Shown: piece after piece, positions 13,501-58,000 of the stretch
Layout of the letters: each line of letters opens with the position of its first letter
Numbering within the stretch: position 1 is the stretch's first letter
From: Ulva prolifera
Taxonomy: Eukaryota; Chlorophyta; Ulvophyceae; Ulvales; Ulvaceae
NCBI GenBank assembly: GCA_023078555.1
Contig: CM041197.1
Location: 10,947,257 to 11,011,256 of the forward strand
DNA: 64,000 nucleotides
Direction: 5' to 3'
The notes under the pieces: generated by a model
What the model was told of the DNA's origin: nothing
The model's database searches: none
Seen by the model: the letters and a program-made list of their open reading frames with translations, nothing else
Program-made: the position numbers and the translations under genes

Positions 13501-16500
13501 TTCCCGGTGGTGGCACTGACAACGCCTGGCTGTAACGGCACCGAGGACTCGCTTCTGGACTGTGGCCCCTTCACCGGCTTCATCTCGCGCTTTACTGATC
13601 GTGACTGTTTCGGTGACAATAACCCCGGGCTCACGCTGGCCTGCGTCGCCACGCCTGAAGAAGGTGTGCAACTTCATCATATGCCTGTGGTCTGTAGCTG
13701 AACACCTGGAAATGATATGCCTTGCTATTAATCTACATTCCATGCATCATACGGGCAGAGATGCCTCCACTGTATGAACCATCTGCTCACATCATGAGGG
13801 CTGTGACATCGTCTGTTGGCAACCTGTCTGTTGGCAACCTGTACGGAAGGGTCATCCTCGTATTCTGGGGTATATCAGCGTCTGTTTGTCTGAGTTGCAG
13901 CTTACCCCTTCAATGCTAAGCTTTGAAGGGTGAAGCTTCTGAATGATCGAAAATCAAATGATTTTTGGAGTGTACGAGGCAAAAGCCCTGCCTGCAGGGG
14001 AGGAGCGAGCTCTGCGGCTGACGGACGGCGGGGACGGCGGCGCCACCTCCGAAGGCCGCGGTATCCTCGAGATCTTCCATGCTGGCGCCTGGGGCACCTT
14101 CTGCGAGGGCGAGGGCTTTGGGCCGTATGACTACGGCCCAGCTCTGACCGAGGTGCGTGTGCGCGTGCAGAATCTCTAGCTCTAGCTCAACTATTTGTAT
14201 CCATGCAGTCCTACTAGTTGTACCCCTGTAGCCCTACTAGTAGTGCCACTGTATCCCTACTAGTTGTACCCCTGTAGCCCTACAAGTAGTACCCCTGTAG
14301 CCCTGCTGGTAGTACCCCTGTAGCCCTACTATTAATATCAAAATATTTGTACCCCTGTACCCCTGCTAGTAGTACCCCTGTAGCCCCTCTTGCTGCACAG
14401 TGCAGCCCATGCAGCTTGCTGACCACCAGGCCCGAATCAGCAGTGCTTCCATGCCGTCCAAGGAGCAGTACTAGTGTTGGGCCGCCATGCGGCATTGTTG
14501 GGGCTCCCATCCCATAATTCCACTTAAGCAATCTGAATTGTTCTATGTTATCGGGCCCCATGCCCCAGCACGACGACCACCGTCAGCACTGTATTGGCTG
14601 CTATTTTGACCCAATGCGATATCAGGATTTTTTAGGTGTGGAAGGAGGTCACGCGATGACGGTAGAATGTGCTACCGCCATGACGATAGAATGTGCCCCT
14701 CATCCTGTATGCATGGAACCTGGTTAATCACCCACTCCTGGGGCCCACTCCTGGCCAGACAACTAATTGAACTAATTGAACTTTGGTTGCGTGTATGCAG
14801 AGTGCCGCGGCGCTCGCATGTCGGGAGCTGGGCTTCGAGGACGGCGTCTTTGCCAACGTCGCGTCGGTCCCGGCCAACATCACGCTGTTGCCTGCCTGGC
14901 TTGGTGCCGTGCCCTGCGTTGGGGATGAGGCGACCCTGACAGACTGTGGACCCCTGCAGTTCGGCAACACGGAGATGTGTGGCCTGACGCAGCGCCTCGT
15001 CTGCACATCCGGCGCGGAACCAGGCTCAGGTCTGCCCCTGCCAACTTCATTTGCCGTTTGCCATTAATTTGTGCCGGTTCCCATGACTCCAGCATTATCG
15101 ACCGCACTACTGTAACTTGAAAGCACATGCACAAGTGTCGCCAGGTTGAGCGTGGTGAAGTAACCCAGTGCAAATTGTTGGTACACAATTCAGTGTGTGG
15201 CAACAGGCCCTGCGCGCTCCTACATGCACTATGCAATCTCGCAGCAACAGCCTTGCAGCGCTCACAGTTGATTGAGACTACTGCATAAGAAAAGAGGTTG
15301 TCTGAATCATCACCTGCTCGAATCAGGCCCCGCCAGTCCTGATGCCTCAGCTCGTACGGCTCGCATGCATGCCCAGCAGGAATCAGATGCTGAGTTTAAT
15401 ATTCCTTGCAGGCCCAAGCCGGGGTGAGGCCCGTCTCACCGGCGGCAGCGCCGACCCCGGCGGCGCCTGGGCCTACGGCCGCCTCGAGGTCTCCGATGGG
15501 GAATTCTTCAGCTCCATCCGCGAGCCGAGATTCACCGAGCGGCTCGGCCGGCGCGGCGTGCAAGTCGCCTGCCGCTCCCTCGGCTTCTCTGCCGGCGCAC
15601 AGATCCTGTCCACCAGGCTGTCGGCGCTGCCGGGGCCGTCTGGAGAGGTCGACACGCTCAGCCGCATCGTGTGCCAGGGAGATGAGGCAACGCTGGCAGA
15701 CTGCGAGTTCTTGGGTGACTACTATTTCGATTACGGCCCGACCCTTGACGACGGCGCAGTGGCAATACTCTGCAGCAACCCCTCAGGTGTGCATGTGACA
15801 TGTGTAGTGAACATATCTTATGTGGCGTGACGCCTTCAGTCAAAACGCGCACTCTCGTGGGGGACATGTATTTTGCCCCGTGTCCAGACTGTTGTGTCAG
15901 AGGCATATGATATACGATGCATCGACCAGCTGCACCTAGTGATACTCAAAACTCGTTGTTTGTGCACCCCTCTGGCGGCGTACAAGTCATGCTTCCATGG
16001 ATGTTTTAGGTCCACACAGACACAACCCACGCATCTGCCTTTGGAGCAACAATTCACCGATTCGTGTGCTGTGTGTATTACTCCATTCGATCTTGTAGAA
16101 CTGTAATGCTCATTAGTCTTTCGGATGAGCTAACGACGTATCAAAACTTGCAGGGTGCTCCAGCAACGACAGCTCCCCGGCCCAGGGAGATGTCCGCCTT
16201 GTCGACCTCAACGGAGTCACTGCTCAGACCGCCCCCTGCGACGCTGTCCACTTTGGCGGCGTTGAGTTTTTCAACGACGGCCTGTGGGGCCGCATCTGCA
16301 GTGGCCGCTTTGGAAGCTCGGAACAGGACTTCACTATCGATGCGAACGTCGTCTGCAGGCAGCTCGGCTTCCCTTTCGGCAGCCTCATTGACGTCGAGGA
16401 GACCCGAAACAGCACCGGCAACACTGTTGGCGCAGACTATGGTGACTACAATGCGCCGGGGGACATCGCATGGGCGACAGATGTGGTGTGCACGGGCAAG

Positions 16501-19611: not shown

Positions 19612-19690
19612 GCACAGTAAAAGTAAATCTTACTTTAGCGAGCCGTATCCTATTGAACATTGACAACTCCGAATTAACGGGACCACAACG
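19612..19690 (+). repeat. Short interspersed repeat with TTTACTGAGCCG-type core (diverged copy)
   Basis: It contains GAGCCGTATCCTATTG, then ACATTGACAACTCCGA, then ACGGGACCAC, as in the copies at 22045-22115 and 46381-46451. An inverted partial copy is at 33681-33726. Retroelement R appears to have inserted at its left end. Confidence 0.7.
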
Positions 19691-21687: not shown

Positions 21688-24600
21688 ATGCCGCAGATGG
21701 CTGCAAAGCCAAGGTGCTCTGCTGCACACGTGGCTGCGGTGGCTTTCGCGGTGCTCCTCACAGCCGCCCCGGCCTGCGCTGATGTCCCATCCATCAGCTT
21801 GATCTCCGGCGGCGGCCGGGCGCCGGGGCGGCCGGCGCGCCCCTCGCGGCCGGCGCGGCCTTCACGCCCTGGGCGCCCCAATCCGGCCCCGGCGCCTGGT
21901 GGGAGCGATGCCATTGTGCCAGACCCTGCTACACCCGACATTGAGCCGCCCGCAGGCGCAACGCCTGAGGCGCCGCCGACAGACGTGCCAGGAGGTGTGA
22001 GGCTGCAACCTAGGCTCTCCAGGGTTAGCACATGCATGGTGAGCCATGTAAAGTAAAGTAAATCTAAATTTACTGAGCCGTATCCTATTGGACATTGACA
22101 ACTCCGAGATTACGGGACCACATATGCCGATGTAGCAACGTGCCTGCTACAGCCAGCAGCGGAGATCAGGTCGTGTCTCGCGAGAGACTGTCGGGAGTGC
22201 CCTAATCACCACCATGTACCTGATGTACTGGCGACCGGGGACACCTCAAGGACTGCCTTAATCACCACCGAATGCGTAGCCGAGAGCCAGTGTTAAATCA
22301 GGTGCAGGCCGAGCCGGTGCAGAGCCGTTTGAGTGTTCCTGGGTGCACGGCGGGCTAGGACGCAGTAGCCTGGGCAGTGAAGCTTCAGTCCCGAAACGCC
22401 TAAAGAATGCCACAGATTGCTCATGCATGTGCCCCTGTGCAGTGTGGTGGGGCGTGTCTGCCATTCACAGCAGGCTGATCTGCCATCAATGCATGTGAGT
22501 CCAGGATCCTCTGCCTCTTCCAGGATGTTTTGACGGAGCTCACCGCCGGCATGCATGTACAGAAGAGGGGGACCTGAGGCTGGTGGGGAGGGTCAACATC
22601 AACGGCTTTGCCACGGGAGCGGTCCAGGTCTTCCAAAATGGTGCCTACGGCGCAGTCTGCATTGAAGGTTTTGACGCAGCGGCCGCACATGTCGCGTGCC
22701 GGCAGCTGGGCTTCGTCGGCGGCACCAACATCCCGCTGGCCATCAGGGGTAACTTTATCGGTGGCAGTGGGCAGCGGCGCTCTCGTATCGAGGTCGGCGC
22801 CTCCTCTATGTAAGAATGATGAACTGTCTCACGTCACAGGCAGCGCTATGCCACAGGCTGCTTTGCAGCGTCGCAGTGGTGGCTGGTGGCACGTGTTATG
22901 TTGTATATCTGAGTGCCGTAGACAGTGCCGTTGGCCTGGCTATGTTAATTCATGCAAGTGTGGAAATCATGCATGTGTGCTTGAGCTGGTATTGTGTGAT
23001 TTTTAGTGTGTATGTCAAACAGTATGTCAAACTGCAGCCTGGGCGAATTGGTCGAAGCCCGCCGCTGTAGCTGGCTTAAAAGTTCCGCGTCAGGACAGCC
23101 ACTTGGAATTTGTTTTGTTCGGAAGCTATATATGTGGCATGTTTCCGAAATTTCCAGAATATTTGGCTGCTGCGCCTTTCACCAGCAAGGCTGCGGTGCA
23201 CGACAGCAATGACTGCAAATCATGGTGCCTCCATTGAGACAGTATAGCTGCATGCAGTCCTTCCTGGCTCCCATGGTGCTGGAGAACCTGGCGTGCACGG
23301 GCACTGAGGAGCGCCTCGTGGACTGTCCCGGGTCCCGAGACCCTCTCGACTATGGCTTTGACCCCGACTATGTCTATACATACTACGGCCCCACCAATGG
23401 CTGCGACCCCCTCGCTCCAACGTACGCCTTTGTGGCCTGTGGCACTGAGACTGGTCCAGGTGCGGCACCCTGCTGCTCGAGGTCAAGATGTGCGCACATG
23501 CATTACGCAGCGGCTCCATGCGGGATGTGGCCCAACTGAAGCTGCTCTCTGTCCTAGTGGGTGGGTGCATGGACTCTCTGTCGAGGGTTGAACTCACAAT
23601 GATATCATATCGCAGGGCTTCGGCTCTGTTACATGTGGCTTCAGGTGACCTGAAGATGCGCAGCACACACTGCCAATCTGCCACTGTCTTAAGCTCAATT
23701 GCCACTGTGTATGTATGCAAGCTGTGTATGTACTGGCCGCCACGTTCGATTGCCTGGCGCAGAATAGCTCCGCACACAAGCACATCTTCTGCCGAGTCGT
23801 GTCTGAACGTGAAGGGCTATCACCCCTGCAGCCACAACCATGCATGCGTAAGGGCCATGCGTGGCGCGATGTCATATTGCACCTTGAGATCCGCATGCCA
23901 GAGCAGATCTCTCACGTTGAACTTCGGTGTACACACAAACAAAAATGCAACACCATGTGCGCCTAGCCGAACATACTGTAGTATACTAGTATAGTATACT
24001 AGTATTCAGACAGGGGGTCATGCACTCCCGCAAAAGGGTGGGACCAGTAAGGGCACGCAAAGTCGATCGCGAATTTGACGGAATGGGCAAGCTTTTGACT
24101 ATAGCGTATGTCTATTGAACAAGTTATGAGGTCTACCTCGTTCGATTGCGGAAATCGGCCCGTGTCCGCTGAAAAGGCTTCTTGGTTTGGGGAGAATCGT
24201 CTGTTGGCTGGCGCGGCTCCCCAATCCTCCCCAATCGTTTGGCCGCTTGCCCAATCCTTCCCAACCCACCTCTGTGTAGGCTATGAATACATTTAGGATC
24301 CCTTGGGGGGTCCCGCATATTTCTGTGGCGCCTTCAGGTGCTCCTAGTGTGCCATTTTGACCTGAAGTCCGACCATCATGCCACTATGTCCCGGAACTCA
24401 ATGTGCGTTCACCTGTGTGATACCATATCAAGGCATGAAATACGCAGTTTACTTCAGCATACATTTTGCCCCGTTGAAGCACATCTCAGCTGTGCCGCAC
24501 AGCTGTGCGGCATGCATGGTTTGTTGTCTTTCACCACCGCAGCACTCTGCTCATTCAGGTCGGAGCTCGTTAATTCAGCTACTTGCATTCATAGCTATGA

Positions 24601-27600: not shown

Positions 27601-30600
27601 CACAGGGGCATAAACTAAGCGACCTGGATTGTGTTCGACACAGAAGTTCCTGGGGCTGTGCAGGCAGAGACGGCGAGCTGCGCCTTGTGCAAGGTGGCGC
27701 GGGCGCAGGCTATGAGTACGGCCGCCTCGAGATATTCCTGCGGGGCTTCTGGAGCACCATCTGCGACACGGACGGCTTCACCCCGGACTCGGCACAAGTG
27801 GCCTGCAGCATTCTCGGCTTTGACGGCGGCTCGTCCATCCAGTTCAGGCAGCCATATTCCAGCTTCCAGGCTGAGAACCAGGTAGGGAGTTCAGTATCAT
27901 TGTCTTCCTGATTGTATTTGCATTGTTGCTGTAGACAAGGGCAATTCCGAAGGGTTTGCCTTGCCGTGGTGCCCAAGCATATTGCAGTGCACTGCACCGT
28001 ACTGCTGGCATCTGCGTGTGTTGCTTGGCTGATACAGGTGTAGCGCACTCGATCATGAGAATGTGTCTGCAGGTGCTGGTCGCCAGCCTGCCGGTGGGGC
28101 TGGCCTCGGTGGACTGCAACGGCGCCGAGACGTCCCTCCTGGACTGCACCTCCAGCCAGAACGACCTACAGCAATGCGGCATTCCTGACACCAACCTCAC
28201 AGATGCCACAGTCCTGACCTGCGCAAACACTGCAGACAGTGCGCTCTCCTGCATGTCAGCCCAGAAACCCGGGTAGCCAAGGCTTTCCGACCCCTGCTGC
28301 CTTGTGTTGCGCTACAATCTGTGTCGTGGCATATGCATTTTTTTCCTTGCTGCCCAACACATTTGAACAAACAATGTCTTGGCTTGACTTCAGAGCGCCC
28401 CTGCCAAGAAGACAAAGACCACTCAATGAAGCAGTGGTGTGCGGCATATGCCAAATAGTTGGTCTTAATGCTCCGATCTCCCACGGCTGCAATATGCATG
28501 CTAGGCCGTGGAGTATGCATTCAGGCATGTCTCTGCATAATCAGATCGGCGCTGGGCTCTGGCCTTCCAATTACTCCATTTGTTGTCTTCTCGTGATGTG
28601 AACGAGCTATCCAGGTTGCGACAAGACACCCCCAATGGAGGAGGGCTCGGTCCGCCTGCGCGGCGGCTTCGGCACGCCCTGCGACCCCGTGCACACCGGC
28701 TTCGTCGAGGTCTTCCACTTTGATGAATGGGGCGCCATCTGCGAAGGCGATGACAGAACGGACCGGCTCGCTGCGGATGTCATCTGCCGCCAGCTCGGTT
28801 TCCCCCACGGCACGCTTGTTGACCCCCTGTCCAATCCGGCTGACCGCGAAACCACGCCGAATGAGTACGGCGGTTACGATTACTCGCCATACATTCCCGA
28901 TGAGGAGGAAGCTTCGGAGGATCAGGAGCGCTTCTGGCTTAACCGGGTGCAGTGCCGGGGACCCGAGGAGAGGCTGCTTGAGTGCAACCTCGGCCAGGGC
29001 TTCCGCACAAACAATGGGGGCTGCACAGGGAACAGGGTGGTGCGGCTGACGGTGGCATGCCGCACGTTCCCCGTGACCGAGGCCCTCGAGGACGTCACCA
29101 CCCCGGGAGCAGGTGCGGTGTCGCTATCTCTGCAATGACCTGCGGTTGTCTCAGGCTGCTGCCGAGGTGCCGACCTGCTGCCTCTGTATGTAGTGGGTTG
29201 ACGGTGTAGCAGGGATCCAGACGCGTATACTATATCAGCGTGTGCCCCGCTTGGGATGCCGCCGGTTCCAATTGCCGTAGATGTTCTGGGATTCGGCCGA
29301 GGCTTTGGCATCAGCCTGATATTGTTGATAAGTGATCCACCTAATAGAATGGACAGCCACCCTGCCAGCGTAAACAGCCGAAAATAACATGCCCAACGAA
29401 AAGATTTATGCCCGTCCGCCGTGTCTACGTATACGTATACAAACGTCTACGTATACGTCTACGTATACGTATACAAACGTCTACGTCTACGTATACGTCT
29501 ACAACCAATGTGTGGTGACCACAGTGACTTTGCAGAGGACGGTGACGTAAGGCTAGTCGATGAGGTGTCCGTTTCCAACTGGAAGGTTGGCCGCCTCGAG
29601 GTCTTCTTCGAGGGCTCCTGGAGCCAGGTGTGTGCCCGGGAGTTTGACGGGCCCAATGCAGACGTCGCCTGCCGCCAGCTCGGCTTCGGCGCCGGCTCGG
29701 TCGGACCGAACCGCGCCAACGGCGCTCCGGCAATATCCGACCGCCTGGTCTTCCCGGTGGTGGCACTGACAACGCCTGGCTGTAATGGCACCGAGGACTC
29801 GCTTCTGGACTGTGGCCCCTTCACCGGCTTCATCTCGCGCTTTACTGATCGTGACTGTTTCGGTGACAATAACCCCGGGCTCACGCTGGCCTGCGTCGCC
29901 ACGCCTGAAGAAGGTGTGCAACTTCATCATATGCCTGTGGTCTGTAGCTGGACACCTGGAAATGATACGCCTTGTTATTAATCTACATTCCATGCATCGT
30001 ACGGGCAGAGATGCCTCCACTGTATGAACCATCTGCTCACATCATGAGGGCTGTGACATCGTCTGTTGGCAACCTGTCTGTTGGCAACCTGTACGGACGG
30101 GTCATCCTCGTATTCTGGGGTATATCAGCGTCTGTTTGTCTGAGTTGCAGCTTACCCCTTCAATGCTAGGCTTTGAAGGGTGAAGCTTCTGAATGATCGA
30201 AAATCAAATGATTTTTGGAGTGTACGAGGCAAAAGCCCTGCCTGCAGGGGAGGAGCGAGCTCTGCGGCTGACGGACGGCGGGGACGGCGGCGCCACCTCC
30301 GAAGGCCGCGGTATCCTCGAGATCTTCCATGCTGGCGCCTGGGGCACCTTCTGCGAGGGCGAGGGCTTTGGGCCGTATGACTACGGCCCAGCTCTGACCG
30401 AGGTGCGTGTGCGCGTGCAGAATCTCTAGCTCTAGCTCAACTATTTGTATCCATGCAGTCCTACTAGTTGTACCCCTGTAGCCCTACTAGTAGTGCCACT
30501 GTACGTCTAAGTGGGTGGTCGCGCATATTAGAGCCATAATTATGACATGACCGCCACATAAGCCCGCGCATAAATCCGCACTTATCCCCTTACCCATTCG

Positions 30601-33600
30601 AGGCATCTTTATGCGCGGGCACCGCGTGTTTATGAGCCCGGGTCGGGGGATCGGCGATACTCTGCTTTGGTAGGTGGGCTGTGTGTACCGTCAAAGACGC
30701 TATTCCCCGCAGTGCATCTCGCACGCTGTTTCATTGTGTCAACGAGACAGAAGAGTTTGATCTGCGCCGCCGCCGTGACGCAATCTCGTGGCCAGCAGAG
30801 CTACACAGAAGTCGTGCGTTTGCCATGCCCACCAGAATGGCCACTCGTGGCGAATCTGAAGGCGCATGGCAAACGAACGACCTCTGCGTAGCGCTGCTCA
30901 CGGCACGTGAGTACGCCTCCGCACAGTGACAGCAGTTTCTTATTCAAACGATGTTAATCGCAGAACATTGACTGGGCTGCCTGCAGTCGCCGGCCATGCA
31001 AGCGGCTGGTACGACCCAGACACAAGCTATGTCGGCATGCAACTTCACAAAGTCAACTTCAAGTGAGTGGCGTCTGTGCAGTTATCAGTGAGTTATGTAT
31101 AAAGCGACTGTGGCTCTTGTTCAGTACAACGTGGGATATCTTAGAGATAAATGCAGCTCGTGCAGTTGTGTGTCTCTTACCTTGCTTCATGAGAAGAGCA
31201 CCCGATCTGCAATATTCCAAGACTACGTACTGCACTACAAATCAATAGAAGGCACGCCATGACACAGTAGGGGCCAAGCATAGGTACAGCGTAGCTAGGC
31301 GGGTCTGTTTGCGTGACCTTGTTCAACCGATGGACATCCATCATATTGTCTCGCAGAAACATACAGCGTGCCTGTTGATCCTGCAACATGATGTGTCTTG
31401 TTAGGAGGCATGGCGTGATCACGGCGTACGTTGGTCTGCACGTCCAATCGTTCGGGGATCCCTGTAGCCATGTGACGACAGTACCGCGGGGCCCGCGAAA
31501 CCCGTGGCGCACCTGTGGCGACAGGGCACCGCCGCTGCAAGGTGCCGCTAGTACCGCGGGGCCCGCGGAACTCGTGGCACTCTTGTGGCGACAGGGCACC
31601 GCCGCTGCAAGGTGCCGCTAGTACCGCGGGGCCCGCGGAACTCGTGGCACTCTTGTGGCAACAGGGCACCGCCGCTGCAAGGTGTCACTAGTGCCGCGGC
31701 GCCCGCGGAACTCGTAACAGCCCTGTCGCAACATCGAAGGCAGCGCGTGCCTTTCGCCACGAGGCCCCAACACAGTGTTGGAAATCGCAGCTGCATCCAA
31801 GGTGACGCAATTCTGGAGCTGCGAAAAAGAAATCGAACATCAAGCATCTAATGTATGGCAAGCGGCAAAGACCATTCAACACACGCACACGGTGACGACA
31901 TGGACATGGCTGAGTATCGCACCATCCCGATCCATCAGAGACTTGAAACACAATTACTGTGGTGTGTGCGCTTTGCCAACGTAGTTTACCGTTGATCATG
32001 TCGTCGACCTGCGAACCATCGCGTTGTCAACAACGCAAATCGCGGCGCCAGTGCACCGCAACTGCTTTCACTGGATACACTGTACAGCGGATACCTACCA
32101 CATGTCCTTCATATGCGGACGTGGGGTTTTCACGAGCGTCAACAACGATGACATGCCAACAACAGTGCATCGACCTTGCTACTCCGTACACCTGTGTGGC
32201 CATGGAGCTGTTCCAGACAAGCACCATATCATTTGATCTGCTACACTGCATGCTTGTCTAAGTGGTTGCGTTGGAAGGAGAGAGGCTTGGGAAATTGCAC
32301 TGAATGGCAACTATGTCGTACGGCAACGTGCTTCTGGCGACCAAGCGCCACTGCTGCGACGGAGCAATCAGCAGCTGATGTAAGGATAACAAATTTCAGC
32401 ATTTAACGTGCAATGCCGCAGAGGCGTCATGTCACACGGACCAGTGTTGAGCGTCGTCAAAACGACAGCCCCTGTATCAGACACCTGTAAACGGCCAAAA
32501 GGCCCACCACACTGCACTTCAGCTAGAAGAAACCATACCATGAACATAATTTGGAGATCTTAGACTGCCCGCTGGCTGGGCAGCGGTCGGACTTTCTTGT
32601 GATTGTGAGAAGCTAACAAAAGCACGTCGGCCTAAACGGGATGGAATCACAGACTAAATGCCGTAAGCGGTAACCATTACAATCAATGCCATCAGGACAA
32701 GTATTCGTGTCTGCGAAGCGCCCACTTCTGTCGAACATTTGCAGCGAACGTTTCAGTACGCCGCGGGAACATGTGGTGCCTACCGCATTCGCCAGCACCT
32801 CATCGCTCAAGATGGTGGGTCAAGCAATGAAGTATCAACGCGTGTTTCACAACCTTTACTGGCAACAAAGCTAGCGGGCGGTGATCGCGCCTCGCCCAGG
32901 CTACTGTTGCATGGGGACATTCGACGCCACGGCAACATGCATGAGGCCCGCCCGAGCTGGTGGTTTGGACAACCGACAGAACGCAGAACCGGTGCTGCAT
33001 CCAGACCATCGTAGATACTTCAACAGTTCAGTGGAAATATCTTCTGATATTTGCGCAAGGTTGGAACAGGCAATCATGCAGCGTTGCAGGCAACAGTGCA
33101 CGAGTTCGAAGCATTGGACTATGCGCCGCTTTCAGACATTGCTAAGTGCATGCGTGATGTGATCGTGTCAACTGTATCGTATGTTCTATGCGCTCGCGTA
33201 CGGTGTCTGTGTGGCGTACAGTATGAGTTTCTATTGTTTGAAGACGGGCCTCCCGTCCGTGCATCTTACGCATAATTACGGTGACTGCACGTCGCTGGCT
33301 GCATCCAAGCTTTCTACAGGTACTTTACAGTAGCTCCTATGTAAGGTTATGTCAAAACCGCTTTGCTCGGGGAAAGGCACAAACGGTTTGGTGTGCGTGG
33401 CGTGATCGTAGTGAATGTCATTCCACATGAGCTATAGCCTCACTGTCTCGATGCCAAATTTACAATATGCCTCCTACAGCATGAAAATGGGATCGTGATG
33501 ATATGTTGCAGCGGTGCTAGATGACCTCCTACTGTACCTGCCCAAGCGGTGTGTGCAGCTCATTGCAGTGGCATAATTTCTCGTGGATGCTTGCACATTC

Positions 33601-36600
33601 ATTCACAGTGCACGGCGTCGCCATCTTTGTGTAAGGATTACTGCGTTGGCCGTGGAAACACACGATAACACACCTCAAAGTCCAATAGGATTCGGCTCAG
33701 TAAATTTAGATTTACTTACTTTACACCTCGGCCAACACACAGCTCCGTATAACGAGCAACCAAGCACGATAGACATAATACATGTACAGGGCGAGCTGCC
33801 ACCTTAACTTAAACATGCACGCAGGATCTAGGCTCTCGCAGGATGCAGGAGTCACAGGAGCCTTGATTGCCTGTGAAGCAGGGCATTTATTGGGTGCATG
33901 ATCAGACGTGAAACAAACAGTACAAAGGAATACCATGCCAAGTCCTACTTCGATTAAGCTGCCATTCGGTGCAGCATTGCTCCATTGTATGTAGTCACAG
34001 ATTGTATCCTGGTTTGCATCTGAATTTATATAATCACTTCATGGCAGATGCTGGTATCCGTGATGGCACGCAGCAATACTCATTGTGGGCACATTGCCTA
34101 GACATCCATACCCAGCCTGCTCTGATCAAGCTGAGAATTGGTGCAGTGCAACTCCAGTATATGCACTCACAGATTGTATCCTGGTTTGCATCTGAATTTA
34201 TATAATCACTTCATGGCAGATGCTGGTATCCGTGATGGCACGCAGCAATACTCATTGTGGGCACATTGCCTAAACATCCACTCCCAGCCTGCTCTGATCA
34301 AGCTGAGAATCGGTGCAGTGCAACTCCAGTATATGCACTCACAGATTGTATCCTGGTGTGCATCTGAATTTAGATAATCACTTCATGGCAGATGCTGGTA
34401 TCCGTGCTAGCACGCAGCAATACACATTGTGGCCACATTGCCTAGACATCCACTCCCAGCCTGCTCTGATCAAGCTGAGAATTGGTGCAGTGCAACTCCA
34501 GTATATGCACTCACAGATTGTATCCTGGTTTGCATCTGAATTTAGATAATCACTTCATGGCAGATGCTGGTATCCGTGATGGCACGCAACAATACACATT
34601 GTGGGCACATTGCCTAGACATCCACTCCCAGCCTGCTCTGATCAAGCTGAGAATTGGTGCAGTGCAACTTCAGTATATGCACTCGCAGATTGTATCCTGG
34701 TTTGCATCTGAATTTATATAATCACTTCATTGCAGATGCTGGTATCCGTGATGGCACGCAGCAATACTCATTGTGGGCACATTGCCTAGACATCCATACC
34801 CAGCCTGCTCTGATCAAGCTGAGAATTGGTGCAGTGCAACTCCAGTATATGCACTCACATATTGTATCCTGGTTTGCATCTGAATTTATATAATCACTTC
34901 ATTGCAGATGCTGGTATCCGTGATGGCACGCAGCAATACTCATTGTGGGCACATTGCCTAGACATCCATACCCAGCCTGCTCTGATCAAGCTGAGAATTG
35001 GTGCAGTGCAACTCCAGTATATGCACTCACATATTGTATCCTGGTTTGCATCTGAATTTATATAATCACGTCATTGCAGATGCTGGTATCCGTGCTGGCA
35101 CGCAACAATACACATTGTGGGCACATTGCCTAAACATCCACTCCCAGCCTGCTCTGATCAAGCTGAGAATTGGTGCAGTGCTGCTCCAGTATATGAACTC
35201 ACAGATTGTATCCTGGTTTGCATCTGAATTTATATAATCACTTCATGGCAGATGCTGGTATCCGTGATGGCACGCAACAATACACATTGTGGGCACATTG
35301 CCTAGACATCCACTCCCAGCCTGCTCTGATCAAGCTGAGAATTGGTGCAGTGCAACTTCAGTATATGCACTCGCAGATTGTATCCTGGTTTGCATCTGAA
35401 TTTATATAATCACTTCATTGCAGATGCTGGTATCCGTGCTGGCACGCAACAATACACATTGTGGGCACATTGCCTAGACATCCACTCCCAGCCTGCTCTG
35501 ATCAAGCTGAGAATTGGTGCAGTGCAACTCCAGTATATGCACTCACATATTGTATCCTGGTTTGCACCTGAATTTATATAATCACGTCATTGCAGATGCT
35601 GGTATCCGTGCTGGCACGCAACAATACACATTGTGGGCACATTGCCTAAACATCCACTCCCAGCCTGCTCTGATCAAGCTGAGAATTGGTGCAGTGCTGC
35701 TCCAGTATATGAACTCACAGATTGTATCCTGGTTTGCATCTGAATTTATATAATCACTTCATGGCAGATGCTGGTATCCGTGATGGCACGCAACAATACA
35801 CATTGTGGGCACATTGCCTAGACATCCACTCCCAGCCTGCTCTGATCAAGCTGAGAATTGGTGCAGTGCAACTCCAGTATATGCACTCACATATTGTATC
35901 CTGGTTTGCATCTGAATTTATATAATCACGTCATTGCAGATGCTGGTATCCGTGCTGGCACGCAACAATACACATTGTGGGCACATTGCCTAAACATCCA
36001 CTCCCAGCCTGCTCTGATCAAGCTGAGAATTGGTGCAGTGCTACTCCATTCAAGCTAAAGTTCTGCACATTACTGATCCGCAGTGTGCAAATGTGAATGC
36101 ACAGCAGCACTTCATGGCAGATGGCGTCACGGTGTGATGGCGCCGAGCATGTCCATACCTTGGCACGCCCCAGATTGGAGCAACAGGCTCGGCACGATAC
36201 GCGCGACTGCCTCGAGATACTACTGCTTGATGCCAGTCACTTAATGCCAATTCATTTGCCGCAGGATGCGGATTGTATCATCGGGTAGGCATGTCAAAAT
36301 GTTGGTTGCGAAGCTCGATGGCATGTTTTGAGGATGAACAATCCCAATATTGCATCTCTCCACCATGTAAAGCAACCTTACACGCCTACAAGTATTTATC
36401 ATTCGTCCCACCAGTTCGGATGGTTTTGCATACGACTCCGGTATAACTGGAACTTGAGGCACAATGTAGATTTACTCTTGTGTTAGCTTTCCTCAGTCTC
36501 ATCCACCTGCACAAGAAAACTGTGTTCGCGCGTGTCTCTCACCAATTGTGATGGATGCAGGTTCTGACCTGATAACCCGATGTATGGTGATCATGGATCA

Positions 36601-39600
36601 GTACCAATCCAAACGGTTGAGAAATTGCCATGAATCAAACATGGCTGGGATGTGACAGTCATGTGATATGATTGACACTTAACTGTGCGTCATGTCAGTC
36701 GCAGTTCATACATGTATTGATTGCAAGTGCGATTCGAGGTAGCTTTGGCATATGGAACTGAAACAACAACGCATGGATGACATACAGAATTTCACCGCAT
36801 GGGCACTTACTTCTCCTCAACAAATATATTAACCGGAAACAGACCTTTGATGGGTTCATCCGAGGCGTACCTGTATCGGGTGCGTTCGTGGTGACGATGG
36901 GTTGACACAAAAGCATACAATCAATGCATCAAGGCATTCCTACGGAACCATCTCTCCAAACTGCGGTATCAGAAATGCAGGAGATGTTCATTCTGAGGCG
37001 GATCGGCAGAAGTTGTTGGCGAGAAGGCGGATACGATTTGCATGTGTCCGGTAAATGCAGAACACGATCTGACGATGATACGCTTGAACGTTATGACCAT
37101 CTCGATTTGCATCAGTCTGAAACACTTTGTGACATCTTGGCATGACGGGCACGCAAAGGCCGGACGCCAGGACTGTGAAACCAGCTGACCATCGGGACTG
37201 CGCCACTTGTTGTCAAGCACGGATCACAGGCGACACTGCACATCGAAAGACGCGAAAAGGTCAGGACAGGTCGATGCATGCCGCCTGTAGAAGCTGATGT
37301 CGTAAACTGATACCGTATCAAGTTGTAGTCGAGGCGAATCATTGAAGTCAAATCATGATTGCGCCGCGGGTCTGACGGGTGCCCTTCCGGACACTTGACC
37401 TGCCGTCAACGAGCGGGAACAAGATCGACGAAGTCCAGATTGTTTGGAAAACACGAACTGATCAACTTGAAGCCCTTTTTTGTCGTTCTTTGGAGCAGTT
37501 TCAGCCCTCTGGAGAACATGTAAGGCCTGAGCACTGAACAGCTCCCGCAGAAGGCCCATGTGAACAGCCTCTCGTCGCAGCCATAACTGCAATTACAGAT
37601 CTGTGCCTTTGTAAGTACTCGTTATCGCTGAATCAAGGAAGCCTGATGTAGGAGCTGTACATTCGTTCGCGTAGGCACTAACGTAGCTGCGCTTGCCCGA
37701 TCGCTCCCGGAGTCAACGACCAAGCGTCGCGGAAGTCAAAACTGTGCCGAAATCCAGTATTTACCTCGGCCCAGGATGCGCACGATTGGTTTACGGCGCT
37801 GTGCAGTCATATGGCGACGGTGCTTGCCAGCCTTTTCGAGAAATACATGGTGTGTCGCACGCTCATAATTCCGCGCATAAGGCCGGTCCCATACTTATGC
37901 GCGACCACCCAGTGCGACGTATCCCTACTAGTTGTACCCCTGTAGCCCTACAAGTAGTACCCCTGTAGCCCTGCTGGTAGTACCCCTGTAGCCCTACTAT
38001 TAATATTACAATATTTGTACCGCTGTACCCCTGCTAGTAGTACCCCTGTAGCCCCTCTTGCTGCACAGTGCAGCCCATGCAGCTTGCTGACCACCAGGCC
38101 CGAATCAGCAGTGCTTCCATGCCGTCCAAGGAGCAGTACTAGTGTTGGGCCGCCATGCGGCATTGTTGGGGCTCCCATCCCATAATTCCACTGAAGCAAT
38201 CTGAATTGTTCTATGTTATCGGGCCCCATGCCCCAGCACGACGACCACCGTCAGCACTGTATTGGCTGCTATTTTGACCCGATGCGATATCAGGATTTTG
38301 TAGGTGTGGAAGGAGGTCACGCGATGACGGTAGAATGTGCTACCGCCATGACGATAGAATGTGCCCCTCATCCTGTATGCATGGAACCTGGTTAATCACC
38401 CACTCCTGGGGCCCACTCCTGGCCAGACAACAAATTGAACAACTTTGGTTGCGTGTATGCAGAGTGCCGCGGCGCTCGCATGTCGGGAGCTGGGCTTCGA
38501 GGACGGCGTCTTTGCCAACGTCGCGTCGGTCCCGGCCAACATCACGCTGTTGCCTGCCTGGCTTGGTGCCGTGCCCTGCGTTGGGGATGAGGCGACCCTG
38601 ACAGACTGTGGACCCCTGCAGTTCGGCAACACGGAGATGTGTGGCCTGACGCAGCGCCTCGTCTGCACATCCGGCGCGGAACCAGGCTCAGGTCTGCCCC
38701 TGCCAACTTCATTTACCGTTTGCCATTAATTTGTGCCGGTTCCCATGACTCCAGCATTATCGACCGCACTACTGTAACTTGAAAGCACATGCACAAGTGT
38801 CGCCAGGTTGAGCGTGGTGAAGTAACCCAGTGCAAATTGTTGGTACACAATTCAGTGTGTGGCAACAGGCCCTGCGCGCTCCTACATGCACTATGCAATC
38901 TCGCAGCAACAGCCTTGCAGCGCTCACAGTTGATTGAGACTACTGCATAAGAAAAGAGGTTGTCTGAATCATCACCTGCTCGAATCAGGCCCCGCCAGTC
39001 CTGATGCCTCAGCTCGTACGGCTCGCATTCATGCCCAGCAGGAATCAGATGCTGAGTTTAATATTCCTTGCAGGCCCAAGCCGGGGTGAGGCCCGTCTCA
39101 CCGGCGGCAGCGCCGACCCCGGCGGCGCCTGGGCCTACGGCCGCCTCGAGGTCTCCGATGGGGAATTCTTCAGCTCCATCCGCGAGCCGAGATTCACCGA
39201 GCGGCTCGGCCGGCGCGGCGTGCAAGTCGCCTGCCGCTCCCTCGGCTTCTCTGCCGGCGCACAGATCCTGTCCACCAGGCTGTCGGCGCTGCCGGGGCCG
39301 TCTGGAGAGGTCGACACGCTCAGCCGCATCGTGTGCCAGGGAGATGAGGCAACGCTGGCAGACTGCGAGTTCTTGGGTGACTACTATTTCGATTACGGCC
39401 CGACCCTTGACGACGGCGCAGTGGCAATACTCTGCAGCAACCCCTCAGGTGTGCATGTGACATGTGTAGTGAACATATCTTATGTGGCGTGACGCCTTCA
39501 GTCAAAACGCGCACTCTCGTGGGGGACATGTATTTTGCCCCGTGTCCAGACTGTTGTGTCAGAGGCATATGATATACGATGCATCGACCAGCTGCACCTA

Positions 39601-43285: not shown

Positions 43286-43660
43286 GCACAGTAAAAGTAA
43301 ATCTTACTTTAGCGAGCCGTATCCTATTGAACATTGACAACTCCGAATTAACGGGACCACAACGGCCCAAGGGGTACACCACCGGGAAATCCCCCTCAGA
43401 CGGCGGTACGCAACTCCGAGTCGCGGAGTAGAATGGCCCCATTAGTTTTCCCTGAACGCAGGTCAACGCCTTGTGCGGATGACCGCCGAGAACAGTTTGT
43501 CAAACCCATCCGCACTACACCACCACAACGGCCGTGCACCTGAACCATGTCCGATTGCAGTTGGAGTCCACGTGTCACATATTGGCCAAGTCATCTCGCG
43601 ATCGGGAGCTGCCCGATCGGGAGCTGCCCACCGTTTGAATGACAGACCGTTTATGCTGAG

Positions 43661-46023: not shown

Positions 46024-49000
46024 ATGCCGCAGATGGCTGCAAAGCCAAGGTGCTCTGCTGCACACGTGGCTGCGGTGGCTTTCGCGGTGCTCCTCACAGC
46101 CGCCCCGGCCTGCGCCGATGTCCCATCCATCAGCTTGATCTCCGGCGGCGGCCGGGCGCCGGGGCGGCCGGCGCGCCCCTCGCGGCCGGCGCGGCCTTCA
46201 CGCCCTGGGCGCCCCAATCCGGCCCCGGCGCCTGGTGGGAGCGATGCCATTGTGCCAGACCCTGCTACACCCGACATTGAGCCGCCCGCAGGCGCAACGC
46301 CTGAGGCGCCGCCGACAGACGTGCCAGGAGGTGTGAGGCTGCAACCTAGGCTCTCCAGGGTTAGCACATGCATGGTGAGCCATGTAAAGTAAAGTAAATC
46401 TAAATTTACTGAGCCGTATCCTATTGGACATTGACAACTCCGAGATTACGGGACCACATATGCCGATGTAGCAACGTGCCTGCTACAGCCAGCAGCGGAG
46501 ATCAGGTCGTGTCTCGCGAGAGACTGTCGGGAGTGCCCTAATCACCACCATGTACCTGATGTACTGGCGACCGGGGACACCTCAAGGACTGCCTTAATCA
46601 CCACCGAATGCGTAGCGCGGCGCCGAGAGCCAGTGTTAAATCAGGTGCAGGCCGAGCCGGTGCAGAGCCGTTTGAGTGTTCCTGGGTGCACGGCGGGCTA
46701 GGACGCAGTAGCCTGGGCAGTGAAGCTTCAGTCCCGAAACGCCTAAAGAATGCCACAGATTGCTCATGCATGTGCCCCTGTGCAGTGTGGTGGGGCGTGT
46801 CTGCCATTCACAGCAGGCTGATCTGCCATCAATGCATGTGAGTCCAGGATCCTCTGCCTCTTCCAGGATGTTTTGACGGAGCTCACCGCCGGCATGCATG
46901 TACAGAAGAGGGGGACCTGAGGCTGGTGGGGAGGGTCAACATCAACGGCTTTGCCACGGGAGCGGTCCAGGTCTTCCAAAATGGTGCCTACGGCGCAGTC
47001 TGCATTGAAGGTTTTGACGCAGCGGCCGCACATGTCGCGTGCCGGCAGCTGGGCTTCGTCGGCGGCACCAACATCCCGCTGGCCATCAGGGGTAACTTTA
47101 TCGGTGGCAGTGGGCAGCGGCGCTCTCGTATCGAGGTCGGCGCCTCCTCTATGTAAGAATGATGAACTGTCTCACGTCACAGGCAGCGCTATGCCACAGG
47201 CTGCTTTGCAGCGTCGCAGTGGTGGCTGGTGGCACGTGTTATGTTGTATATCTGAGTGCCGTAGACAGTGCCGTTGGCCTGGCTATGTTAATTCATGCAA
47301 GTGTGGAAATCATGCATGTGTGCTTGAGCTGGTATTGTGTGATTTTTAGTGTGTATGTCAAACAGTATGTCAAACTGCAGCCTGGGCGAATTGGTCGAAG
47401 CCCGCCGCTGTAGCTGGCTTAAAAGTTCCGCGTCAGGACAGCCACTTGGAATTTGTTTTGTTCGGAAGCTATATATGTGGCATGTTTCCGAAATTTCCAG
47501 AATATTTGGCTGCTGCGCCTTTCACCAGCAAGGCTGCGGTGCACGACAGCAATGACTGCAAATCATGGTGCCTCCATTGAGACAGTATAGCTGCATGCAG
47601 TCCTTCCTGGCTCCCATGGTGCTGGAGAACCTGGCGTGCACGGGCACTGAGGAGCGCCTCGTGGACTGTCCCGGGTCCCGAGACCCTCTCGACTATGGCT
47701 TTGACCCCGACTATGTCTATACATACTACGGCCCCACCAATGGCTGCGACCCCCTCGCTCCAACGTACGCCTTTGTGGCCTGTGGCACTGAGACTGGTCC
47801 AGGTGCGGCACCCTGCTGCTCGAGGTCAAGATGTGCGCACATGCATTACGCAGCGGCTCCATGCGGGATGTGGCCCAACTGAAGCTGCTCTCTGTCCTAG
47901 TGGGTGGGTGCATGGACTCTCTGTCGAGGGTTGAACTCACAATGATATCATATCGCAGGGCTTCGGCTCTGTTACATGTGGCTTCAGGTGACCTGAAGAT
48001 GCGCAGCACACACTGCCAATCAGCCACTGTCTTAAGCTCAATTGCCACTGTGTATGTATGCAAGCTGTGTATGTACTGGCCGCCACGTTCGATTGCCTGG
48101 CGCAGAATAGCTCCGCACACAAGCACATCTTCTGCCGAGTCGTGTCTGAACGTGAAGGGCTATCACCCCTGCAGCCACAACCATGCATGCGTAAGGGCCA
48201 TGCGTGGCGCGATGTCATATTGCACCTTGAGATCCGCATGCCAGAGCAGATCTCTCACGTTGAACTTCGGTGTACACACAAACAAAAATGCAACACCATG
48301 TGCGCCTAGCCGAACATACTGTAGTATACTAGTATAGTATACTAGTATTCAGACAGGGGGTCATGCACTCCCGCAAAAGGGTGGGACCAGTAAGGGCACG
48401 CAAAGTCGATCGCGAATTTGACGGAATGGGCAAGCTTTTGACTATAGCGTATGTCTATTGAACAAGTTATGAGGTCTACCTCGTTCGATTGCGGAAATCG
48501 GCCCGTGTCCGCTGAAAAGGCTTCTTGGTTTGGGGAGAATCGTCTGTTGGCTGGCGCGGCTCCCCAATCCTCCCCAATCGTTTGGCCGCTTGCCCAATCC
48601 TTCCCAACCCACCTCTGTGTAGGCTATGAATACATTTAGGATCCCTTGGGGGGTCCCGCATATTTCTGTGGCGCCTTCAGGTGCTCCTAGTGTGCCATTT
48701 TGACCTGAAGTCCGACCATCATGCCACTATGTCCCGGAACTCAATGTGCGTTCACCTGTGTGATACCATATCAAGGCATGAAATACGCAGTTTACTTCAG
48801 CATACATTTTGCCCCGTTGAAGCACATCTCAGCTGTGCCGCACAGCTGTGCGGCATGCATGGTTTGTTGTCTTTCACCACCGCAGCACTCTGCTCATTCA
48901 GGTCGGAGCTCGTTAATTCAGCTACTTGCATTCATAGCTATGAGTTGCAATTCTGCGGACTGTATGATCGCAACATAGCATCACTATCACTGCCAATGAG

Positions 49001-52000: not shown

Positions 52001-55000
52001 GTGCAGGCAGAGACGGCGAGCTGCGCCTTGTGCAAGGTGGCGCGGGCGCAGGCTATGAGTACGGCCGCCTCGAGATATTCCTGCGGGGCTTCTGGAGCAC
52101 CATCTGCGACACGGACGGCTTCACCCCGGACTCGGCACAAGTGGCCTGCAGCATTCTCGGCTTTGACGGCGGCTCGTCCATCCAGTTCAGGCAGCCATAT
52201 TCCAGCTTCCAGGCTGAGAACCAGGTAGGGAGTTCAGTATCATTGTCTTCCTGATTGTATTTGCATTGTTGCTGTAGACAAGGGCAATTCCGAAGGGTTT
52301 GCCTTGCCGTGGTGCCCAAGCATATTGCAGTGCACTGCACCGTACTGCTGGCATCTGCGTGTGTTGCTTGGCTGATACAGGTGTAGCGCACTCGATCATG
52401 AGAATGTGTCTGCAGGTGCTGGTCGCCAGCCTGCCGGTGGGGCTGGCCTCGGTGGACTGCAACGGCGCCGAGACGTCCCTCCTGGACTGCACCTCCAGCC
52501 AGAACGACCTACAGCAATGCGGCATTCCTGACACCAACCTCACAGATGCCACAGTCCTGACCTGCGCAAACACTGCAGACAGTGCGCTCTCCTGCATGTC
52601 AGCCCAGAAACCCGGGTAGCCAAGGCTTTCCGACCCCTGCTGCCTTGTGTTGCGCTACAATCTGTGTCGTGGCATATGCATTTTTTTCCTTGCTGCCCAA
52701 CACATTTGAACAAACAATGTCTTGGCTTGACTTCAGAGCGCCCCTGCCAAGAAGACAAAGACCACTCAATGAAGCAGTGGTGTGCGGCATATGCCAAATA
52801 GTTGGTCTTAATGCTCCGATCTCCCACGGCTGCAATATGCATGCTAGGCCGTGGAGTATGCATTCAGGCATGTCTCTGCATAATCAGATCGGCGCTGGGC
52901 TCTGGCCTTCCAATTACTCCATTTGTTGTCTTCTCGTGATGTGAACGAGCTATCCAGGTTGCGACAAGACACCCCCAATGGAGGAGGGCTCGGTCCGCCT
53001 GCGCGGCGGCTTCGGCACGCCCTGCGACCCCGTGCACACCGGCTTCGTCGAGGTCTTCCACTTTGATGAATGGGGCGCCATCTGCGAAGGCGATGACAGA
53101 ACGGACCGGCTCGCTGCGGATGTCATCTGCCGCCAGCTCGGTTTCCCCCACGGCACGCTTGTTGACCCCCTGTCCAATCCGGCTGACCGCGAAACCACGC
53201 CGAATGAGTACGGCGGTTACGATTACTCGCCATACATTCCCGATGAGGAGGAAGCTTCGGAGGATCAGGAGCGCTTCTGGCTTAACCGGGTGCAGTGCCG
53301 GGGACCCGAGGAGAGGCTGCTTGAGTGCAACCTCGGCCAGGGCTTCCGCACAAACAATGGGGGCTGCACAGGGAACAGGGTGGTGCGGCTGACGGTGGCA
53401 TGCCGCACGTTCCCCGTGACCGAGGCCCTCGAGGACGTCACCACCCCGGGAGCAGGTGCGGTGTCGCTATCTCTGCAATGACCTGCGGTTGTCTCAGGCT
53501 GCTGCCGAGGTGCCGACCTGCTGCCTCTGTATGTAGTGGGTTGACGGTGTAGCAGGGATCCAGACGCGTATACTATATCAGCGTGTGCCCCGCTTGGGAT
53601 GCCGCCGGTTCCAATTGCCGTAGATGTTCTGGGATTCGGCCGAGGCTTTGGCATCAGCCTGATATTGTTGATAAGTGATCCACCTAATAGACTGGACAGC
53701 CACCCTGCCAGCGTAAACAGCCGAAAATAACATGCCCAACGAAAAGATTTATGCCCGTCCGCCGTGTCTACGTATACGTATACAAACGTCTACGTCTACG
53801 TATACGTCTACAACCAATGTGTGGTGACCACAGTGACTTTGCAGAGGACGGTGACGTAAGGCTAGTCGATGAGGTGTCCGTTTCCAACTGGAAGGTTGGC
53901 CGCCTCGAGGTCTTCTTCGAGGGCTCCTGGAGCCAGGTGTGTGCCCGGGAGTTTGACGGGCCCAATGCAGACGTCGCCTGCCGCCAGCTCGGCTTCGGCG
54001 CCGGCTCGGTCGGACCGAACCGCGCCAACGGCGCTCCGGCAATATCCGACCGCCTGGTCTTCCCGGTGGTGGCACTGACAACGCCTGGCTGTAATGGCAC
54101 CGAGGACTCGCTTCTGGACTGTGGCCCCTTCACCGGCTTCATCTCGCGCTTTACTGATCGTGACTGTTTCGGTGACAATAACCCCGGGCTCACGCTGGCC
54201 TGCGTCGCCACGCCTGAAGAAGGTGTGCAACTTCATCATATGCCTGTGGTCTGTAGCTGGACACCTGGAAATGATACGCCTTGTTATTAATCTACATTCC
54301 ATGCATCGTACGGGCAGAGATGCCTCCACTGTATGAACCATCTGCTCACATCATGAGGGCTGTGACATCGTCTGTTGGCAACCTGTCTGTTGGCAACCTG
54401 TACGGACGGGTCATCCTCGTATTCTGGGGTATATCAGCGTCTGTTTGTCTGAGTTGCAGCTTACCCCTTCAATGCTAGGCTTTGAAGGGTGAAGCTTCTG
54501 AATGATCGAAAATCAAATGATTTTTGGAGTGTACGAGGCAAAAGCCCTGCCTGCAGGGGAGGAGCGAGCTCTGCGGCTGACGGACGGCGGGGACGGCGGC
54601 GCCACCTCCGAAGGCCGCGGTATCCTCGAGATCTTCCATGCTGGCGCCTGGGGCACCTTCTGCGAGGGCGAGGGCTTTGGGCCGTATGACTACGGCCCAG
54701 CTCTGACCGAGGTGCGTGTGCGCGTGCAGAATCTCTAGCTCTAGCTCAACTATTTGTATCCATGCAGTCCTACTAGTTGTACCCCTGTAGCCCTACTAGT
54801 AGTGCCACTGTACGTCTAAGTGGGTGGTCGCGCATATTAGAGCCATAATTATGACATGACCGCCACATAAGCCCGCGCATAAATCCGCACTTATCCCCTT
54901 ACCCATTCGAGGCATCTTTATGCGCGGGCACCGCGTGTTTATGAGCCCGGGTCGGGGGATCGGCGATACTCTGCTTTGGTAGGTGGGCTGTGTGTACCGT

Positions 55001-58000
55001 CAAAGACGCTATTCCCCGCAGTGCATCTCGCACGCTGTTTCATTGTGTCAACGAGACAGAAGAGTTTGATCTGCGCCGCCGCCGTGACGCAATCTCGTGG
55101 CCAGCAGAGCTACACAGAAGTCGTGCGTTTGCCATGCCCACCAGAATGGCCACTCGTGGCGAATCTGAAGGCGCATGGCAAACGAACGACCTCTGCGTAG
55201 CGCTGCTCACGGCACGTGAGTACGCCTCCGCACAGTGACAGCAGTTTCTTATTCAAACGATGTTAATCGCAGAACATTGACTGGGCTGCCTGCAGTCGCC
55301 GGCCATGCAAGCGGCTGGTACGACCCAGACACAAGCTATGTCGGCATGCAACTTCACAAAGTCAACTTCAAGTGAGTGGCGTCTGTGCAGTTATCAGTGA
55401 GTTATGTATAAAGCGACTGTGGCTCTTGTTCAGTACAACGTGGGATATCTTAGAGATAAATGCAGCTCGTGCAGTTGTGTGTCTCTTACCTTGCTTCATG
55501 AGAAGAGCACCCGATCTGCAATATTCCAAGACTACGTACTGCACTACAAATCAATAGAAGGCACGCCATGACACAGTAGGGGCCAAGCATAGGTACAGCG
55601 TAGCTAGGCGGGTCTGTTTGCGTGACCTTGTTCAACCGATGGACATCCATCATATTGTCTCGCAGAAACATACAGCGTGCCTGTTGATCCTGCAACATGA
55701 TGTGTCTTGTTAGGAGGCATGGCGTGATCACGGCGTACGTTGGTCTGCACGTCCAATCGTTCGGGGATCCCTGTAGCCATGTGACGACAGTACCGCGGGG
55801 CCCGCGAAACCCGTGGCGCACCTGTGGCGACAGGGCACCGCCGCTGCAAGGTGCCGCTAGTACCGCGGGGCCCGCGGAACTCGTGGCACTCTTGTGGCGA
55901 CAGGGCACCGCCGCTGCAAGGTGCCGCTAGTACCGCGGGGCCCGCGGAACTCGTGGCACTCTTGTGGCAACAGGGCACCGCCGCTGCAAGGTGTCACTAG
56001 TGCCGCGGCGCCCGCGGAACTCGTAACAGCCCTGTCGCAACATCGAAGGCAGCGCGTGCCTTTCGCCACGAGGCCCCAACACAGTGTTGGAAATCGCAGC
56101 TGCATCCACGGTGACGCAATTCTGGAGCTGCGAAAAAGAAATCGAACATCAAGCATCTAATGTATGGCAAGCGGCAAAGACCATTCAACACACGCACACG
56201 GCGACGACATGGACATGGCTGAGTATCGCACCATCCCGATCCATCAGAGACTTGAAACACAATTACTGTGGTGTGTGCGCTTTGCCAACATAGTTTACCG
56301 TTGATCATGTCGTCGACCTGCGAACCATCGCGTTGTCAACAACGCAAATCGCGGCGCCAGTGCACCGCAACTGCTTTCACTGGATACACTGTACAGCGGA
56401 TACCTACCACATGTCCTTCATATGCGGACGTGGGGTTTTCACGAGCGTCAACAACGATGACATGCCAACAACAGTGCATCGACCTTGCTACTCCGTACAC
56501 CTGTGTGGCCATGGAGCTGTTCCAGACAAGCACCATATCATTTAATCTGCTACACTGCATGCTTGTCTAAGTGGTTGCGTTGGAAGGAGAGAGGCTTGGG
56601 AAATTGCACTGAATGGCAACTATGTCGTACGGCAACGTGCTTCTGGCGACCAAGCGCCACTGCTGCGACGGAGCAATCAGCAGCTGATGTAAGGATAACA
56701 AATTTCAGCATTTAACTTGCAATGCCGCAGAGGCGTCATGTCACACGGACCAGTGTTGAGCGTCGTCAAAACGACAGCCCCTGTATCAGACACCTGTAAA
56801 CGGCCAAAAGGCCCACCACACTGCACTTCAGCTAGAAGAAACCATACCATGAACATAATTTGGAGATCTTAGACTGCCCGCTGGCTGGGCAGCGGTCGGA
56901 CTTTCTTGTGATTGTGAGAAGCTAACAAAAGCACGTCGGCCTAAACGGGATGGAATCACAGACTAAATGCCGTAAGCGGTAACCATTACAATCAATGCCA
57001 TCAGGACAAGTATTCGTGTCTGCGAAGCGCCCACTTCTGTCGAACATTTGCAGCGAACGTTTCAGTACGCCGCGGGAACATGTGGTGCCTACCGCATTCG
57101 CCAGCACCTCATCGCTCAAGATGGTGGGTCAAGCAATGAAGTATCAACGCGTGTTTCACAACCTTTACTGGCAACAAAGCTAGCGGGCGGTGATCGCGCC
57201 TCGCCCAGGCTACTGTTGCATGGGGACATTCGACGCCACGGCAACATGCATGAGGCCCGCCCGAGCTGGTGGTTTGGACAACCGACAGAACGCAGAACCG
57301 GTGCTGCATCCAGACCATCGTAGATACTTCAACAGTTCAGTGGAAATATCTTCTGATATTTGCGCAAGGTTGGAACAGGCAATCATGCAGCGTTGCAGGC
57401 AACAGTGCACGAGTTCGAAGCATTGGACTATGCGCCGCTTTCAGACATTGCTAAGTGCATGCGTGATGTGATCGTGTCAACTGTATCGTATGTTCTATGC
57501 GCTCGCGTACGGTGTCTGTGTGGCGTACAGTATGAGTTTCTATTGTTTGAAGACGGGCCTCCCGTCCGTGCATCTTACGCATAATTACGGTGACTGCACG
57601 TCGCTGGCTGCATCCAAGCTTTCTACAGGTACTTTACAGTAGCTCCTATGTAAGGTTATGTCAAAACCGCTTTGCTCGGGGAAAGGCACAAACGGTTTGG
57701 TGTGCGTGGCGTGATCGTAGTGAATGTCATTCCACATGAGCTATAGCCTCACTGTCTCGATGCCAAATTTACAATATGCCTCCTACAGCATGAAAATGGG
57801 ATCGTGATGATATGTTGCAGCGGTGCTAGATGACCTCCTACTGTACCTGCCCAAGCGGTGTGTGCAGCTCATTGCAGTGGCATAATTTCTCGTGGATGCT
57901 TGCACATTCATTCACAGTGCACGGCGTCGCCATCTTTGTGTAAGGATTACTGCGTTGGCCGTGGAAACACACGATAACACACCTCAAAGTCCAATAGGAT

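Follow-up and report, generated by a model that had tools for sequence, protein, structure and literature searches.

A 7.4-kb, probably non-autonomous TIR transposon with a variable 2-bp target duplication in the genome of Ulva prolifera

What kind of transposon leaves a 7.4-kb insertion flanked by TA on both sides, and does such an element, with tandem arrays inside it, carry satellite DNA and a gene through the genome? The question is raised by a locus of the green alga Ulva prolifera, for which we analyzed a stretch of 64,000 nucleotides, hereafter the window (C2:10947257-11011256 in an 88.9-Mb assembly of 44 contigs). The element, 7416 bp on the forward strand, was delimited by its terminal inverted repeats (TIRs), the flanking TA, an empty site and, elsewhere in the genome, four further loci that carry copies; it is real, as claimed in an initial annotation made from the window's letters, and the borders given there, 30504-37919, are exact. 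Inverted ends of about 24 bp had also been proposed: the left TIR (30504-30527, forward strand, CGTCTAAGTGGGTGGTCGCGCATA) and the right TIR (37896-37919, reverse strand, reading inward CGTCGCACTGGGTGGTCGCGCATA) are 24 nt long and, compared with each other, 88% complementary, so that the termini of the element read CGTC...GACG. The 2-bp duplication is TA on the left (30502-30503) and on the right (37920-37921), and the perfect empty site that had been noticed, a single TA, is intact at 14252-14253 in the first unit of a tandem duplication. Subterminal motifs were likewise confirmed: four GCGCATAA motifs are present in the element, each at most 110 bp from an end. The motif GCGCATA occurs seven times in the element versus 1.0 expected, five of the seven lying at most 110 bp from an end, namely at 30521 (+), 30566 (+) and 30610 (-) on the left (30521-30616) and at 37873 (+) and 37896 (-) on the right (37873-37902); outside the elements it was counted four times in 49,339 bp of the window. 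Near the left end, at 30794-30898, there is an inverted repeat of 35 bp (89%) around a loop of 35 bp; this interval corresponds to element positions 291-395.

The duplication units contained in the window are each about 24 kb long; the first is empty and the next two are filled. Of the two filled units, the later one carries its copy at 54813-62057 (forward strand, 7245 bp, 11.0 copies of the 172-bp unit described below), and beyond the window there are further filled units at C2:11027354 and C2:11050994, as well as a 225-bp fragment of the element's left end at C2:11025561. Among the element copies of these filled units, four in all, identity is 99.88-99.97%, which argues that a single insertion was amplified with the host segment and would have given rise to the tandemly arrayed copies of the window; the copy at 54813-62057 is thus duplicated along with the host segment and is no separate insertion. 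It is possible that the empty site of the first unit arose by precise excision and was not simply never filled. The target site lies inside a 23-bp minisatellite (window positions 14183-14331, 30440-30503 and 37919-37999), and the frame just before this minisatellite reads like the end of what we take to be a scavenger-receptor-type gene.

Independent insertions were sought by searching the genome with the element; 40 of 796 candidates were scored, and the list of copies is therefore a lower bound. The search gave 52 matches, 13 of which are element copies or pieces of them, eight are the self-inverted positions 291-395 and 31 belong to a dispersed repeat near element position 3172. Full-length copies are also present at C1:2817201-2824622, C9:1196006-1203425, C2:10609328-10616677 and, in two pieces, on C3, while a fragment (element positions 552-2209) adjoins a run of N at C2:4457937-4459592. 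The element has thus been inserted at no fewer than five loci, the window locus included. Their 1-kb flanks have one 28-bp match in common and nothing more, so these loci are not segmental duplicates. The duplicated target is TA at the window locus and GA, AA, TT and AA at the four others; its length is constant, with 2 bp at all five loci (the C3 ends sit on two assembly pieces), and nine of its ten letters are A or T. What holds from locus to locus is therefore the duplication of 2 bp, not TA. The TA flanks reported for this element accordingly hold for the window locus and fail as a target rule, and the whole-genome check for TA-flanked ends that had been suggested yielded further copies at four loci, none of them flanked by TA. 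A single TA-flanked insertion can mislead classification.

Some of the copies are altered at their ends: the C9 copy has one changed base among its first four, and the C3 copy has right-end sequence at both ends. With the arrays left out, the bodies of the C1, C9 and C2:10.6-Mb copies differ by only 6-9 substitutions in about 5,115 bp (0.12-0.18%), which indicates that the element moved recently. Between the window copy and these three there are 43-46 substitutions, and comparison of the C3 copy with each of the remaining four gives 60-62. The C3 copy is cut off by the contig start after element position 6299 and continues with position 6300 at C3:64070, beside a run of N, which means that the 64-kb piece (C3:1-64070) closes on itself; it could be a tandem unit, a contig that has been circularised or a genuine circle of DNA. 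At C9:4026452, seemingly inside an intron of a host gene, lies a diverged remnant of the right end (85% identity over about 60 bp); the 10 kb inward of it were searched for a partner end, and the candidates obtained were weak, with 4 or 7 mismatches.

Two tandem arrays are nested in the element, both in forward orientation. The 70-bp array, which had been described, is present in 3.4 copies at 31480-31715, and the 172-bp array in 12.0 copies at 33980-36048. When one 172-bp monomer was used as a genome query, all 90 of 90 matches fell inside element copies, and this repeat is therefore a private internal array and not a satellite that is being spread. The claim of a 172-bp satellite as cargo is right as regards the array and unsupported as regards a genome satellite: a genome satellite carried by the transposon was rejected since free 172-bp arrays were not found, and the proposed spreading of satellite arrays finds no support either, no match of the repeat having been seen outside element copies. 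A satellite seen in a transposon need not be a genome satellite. Tetris, a foldback transposon tied to a satellite in Drosophila virilis, similarly brings a mobile element and a tandem array together, as far as the available part of the source describes it (PMC4079207), but the array of the present element is found only inside it. Arrays vary between copies: the 70-bp array of the C2:10.6-Mb copy is shorter by one unit, and the C3 copy lacks 688 bp, that is four 172-bp units. In a column-wise comparison the array divergence is 2.2-5.8%, part of which reflects the turnover of units; both arrays may have arisen, and may still be turning over, within the element. The element also holds a piece of about 50 bp (33675-33724, forward strand) of the dispersed repeat that accounts for 31 of the 52 matches. 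This motif, GTCCAATAGGATACGGCTCAGTAAATTTAGATTTACTTTAC, is also found in the window at 22047-22098, 46383-46434, 19621-19663 and 43295-43337, and it probably derives from a non-LTR retrotransposon, of which it would be the 3' tail. A similar tail, together with CATA repeats, is seen in a 541-bp insert in the C3 copy.

Could the element be a deletion derivative of an EnSpm/CACTA- or Plavaka-like transposon? CACTA elements are often large and often have subterminal repeats, as this element does. The length of the duplication keeps this side, as well as PIF/Harbinger-ISL2EU-Spy (PHIS), among the candidates: in the available part of a recent source, 2 bp is within the span of lengths given for the CMCT clade and Plavaka, and PHIS elements may make duplications of 0, 2 or 3 bp (PMC12730594). 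The same part of that source gives 7- or 8-bp duplications for Kyakuja-Dileera-Zisupton (KDZ) elements, which differs from the 2 bp made by this element. The likeness to EnSpm/CACTA and Plavaka, as far as the CMCT clade is covered there, extends to TIRs, short duplications (2 bp in some lineages) and large sizes (PMC12730594), whereas the ends differ. The CGTC...GACG termini do not have the CAC...GTG form of EnSpm/CACTA, nor either of the forms given for Plavaka in that part of the source, TGT..ACA or CATCA..TGATG; they start with CGTC and not with CA, CAC, TGT or CATCA (PMC12730594), and no transposase is seen in the element. PF02992 (Transposase_21) had no match in the genome, but the 14 control genomes were silent as well; PF18758, the model used for KDZ, also had no genome match, and the control genomes were again silent. 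We regard this derivation as a tentative possibility, and the element is filed only as a non-autonomous TIR transposon with no superfamily named.

The coding capacity of the element bears on whether it could move by itself. The number of stop-to-stop frames of at least 60 aa that overlap it is 65, the longest of 146 aa, and a Pfam scan of 20 stretches gave none over the cut-off and four matches below it. Once the array-free body was joined, 6 frames of at least 100 aa were counted, while 200 Markov simulations averaged 10.1, and the longest frame, 204 aa, spans a join and was reached in 21.5% of the simulations. Element frames do not have the codon-position G+C pattern seen in two longer comparison frames. 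Among the variable sites of the copies, silent changes are not consistently in excess; each frame has few such sites, and single frames range from none silent to all silent. By frames, Pfam, silent changes and simulations, no transposase was recognised in the element, and the annotated absence of a known one was borne out (0 of 20 stretches over the Pfam cut-off). The small spliced gene that had been listed, with no coordinates given, found no support in the same results: a longest frame of 146 aa, no Pfam family over the cut-off in 20 stretches and no consistent silent excess. An autonomous element, with a transposase of its own in many short exons that is not recognised, would have room for its gene in the 5.1-kb array-free body, and the bodies of the copies remain alike. 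We nevertheless hold it to be unlikely in view of the Pfam result, the frames of at least 100 aa being fewer than the simulated mean, the missing codon-position G+C pattern and, with less weight, the lack of a consistent silent excess.

From these results we conclude that the element is probably a non-autonomous class II TIR transposon of 7.4 kb which makes a variable, mostly A/T, 2-bp duplication and is moved in trans. This is in accordance with the earlier proposal of a large non-autonomous element: there is no recognisable transposase, several insertions are recent and the end pattern is common to other elements. The transposase would make cuts staggered by 2 bp at the target, its putative binding sites being the GCGCATA motifs together with the 24-bp ends, and the enzyme would be supplied in trans by another element with like ends.

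A pattern made from the element ends, with at most one mismatch, gave 43 matches versus 15 control matches, and it revealed a second set of ends, CGTCTAC...GGTGGTCGC.CATA, arranged in inverted pairs. The census with the pattern of this second set, with at most two mismatches, gave 81 matches versus 0 in the control; seven are the element's own and 74 are further ends. The latter form 17 adjacent inward-facing pairs within 12 kb, with 1, 2 and 0 pairs in the other orientations, while 2,000 randomisations, in which lengths were assumed for most contigs, produced 0.26 pairs on average and never more than 4. Of the pairs within 12 kb, five, among them C4:2900634-2909103 and C2:1111335-1119804, are exactly 8,470 bp long, four measure 8,394-8,516 bp and the others range from 1.1 to 9.8 kb; another seven pairs are longer, spanning 13 to 25 kb. 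The 17 pairs, known here from their ends, look like a candidate sister group that could supply the transposase, and we consider the chance about even that the recurrent 8,470-bp elements, the best candidates, are the source of the enzyme. For one sister end, taken with 1.5 kb of its interior, no Pfam family was over the cut-off in 10 stretches, nine of which lie within the sister element. In the viral collection the sister pattern was present in 0 stretches and a 16-mer of the element ends in seven, which are taken as chance. The element is a clean case of a large, recently mobile transposon without a recognisable enzyme: it has an empty site, its copies are nearly identical, and the same genome carries a candidate partner group defined by ends, so that the question of which enzyme moves it can be answered directly.

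An undescribed family, as had been suggested, is possible; our literature search turned up nothing that we recognised as this element, which does not establish that it is unpublished. A stronger claim, that the CGTC...GACG elements (the 7.4-kb family together with the 8,470-bp sisters and the pairs of lesser or greater length) constitute a separate superfamily, one that duplicates 2 bp of unconstrained sequence and has a transposase belonging to none of the groups described so far, is in our opinion doubtful. A relative of PHIS is improbable: a 2-bp duplication is shared with some lineages of the group according to the part of the source available (PMC12730594), and DDE_Tnp_4 transposases are present in the genome, but among the listed TIR-sharing pairs, inspected by eye, we found none of the 11 matches of PF13359 (DDE_Tnp_4) and not the single match of PF09588 (YqaJ), in an exon-wise search in which a miss is possible. 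PIF/Harbinger and ISL2EU were set aside on these grounds, the genome matches existing and none lying in a listed TIR pair. A non-autonomous Tc1/mariner-type element targeting TA resembles the present one in its 2-bp duplication and in the TA that flanks the window insertion left and right, but this TA-specific reading is ruled out by the four non-TA insertions, and the six genome matches of PF13358 include none over the cut-off and, by eye, none in a listed sister pair, which leaves it extremely improbable. In the 14 control genomes PF13358, PF13359 and PF09588 were matched in 3, 2 and 2, respectively.

The search for telomere-type repeats in the assembly gave 16 matches versus 2 in the control. 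TTAGGG-type arrays were seen in the interior of long contigs on C2, C4, C7 and C12 (for example at C2:6.00 Mb and C2:7.20 Mb), where they are perhaps chromosome ends joined in assembly.
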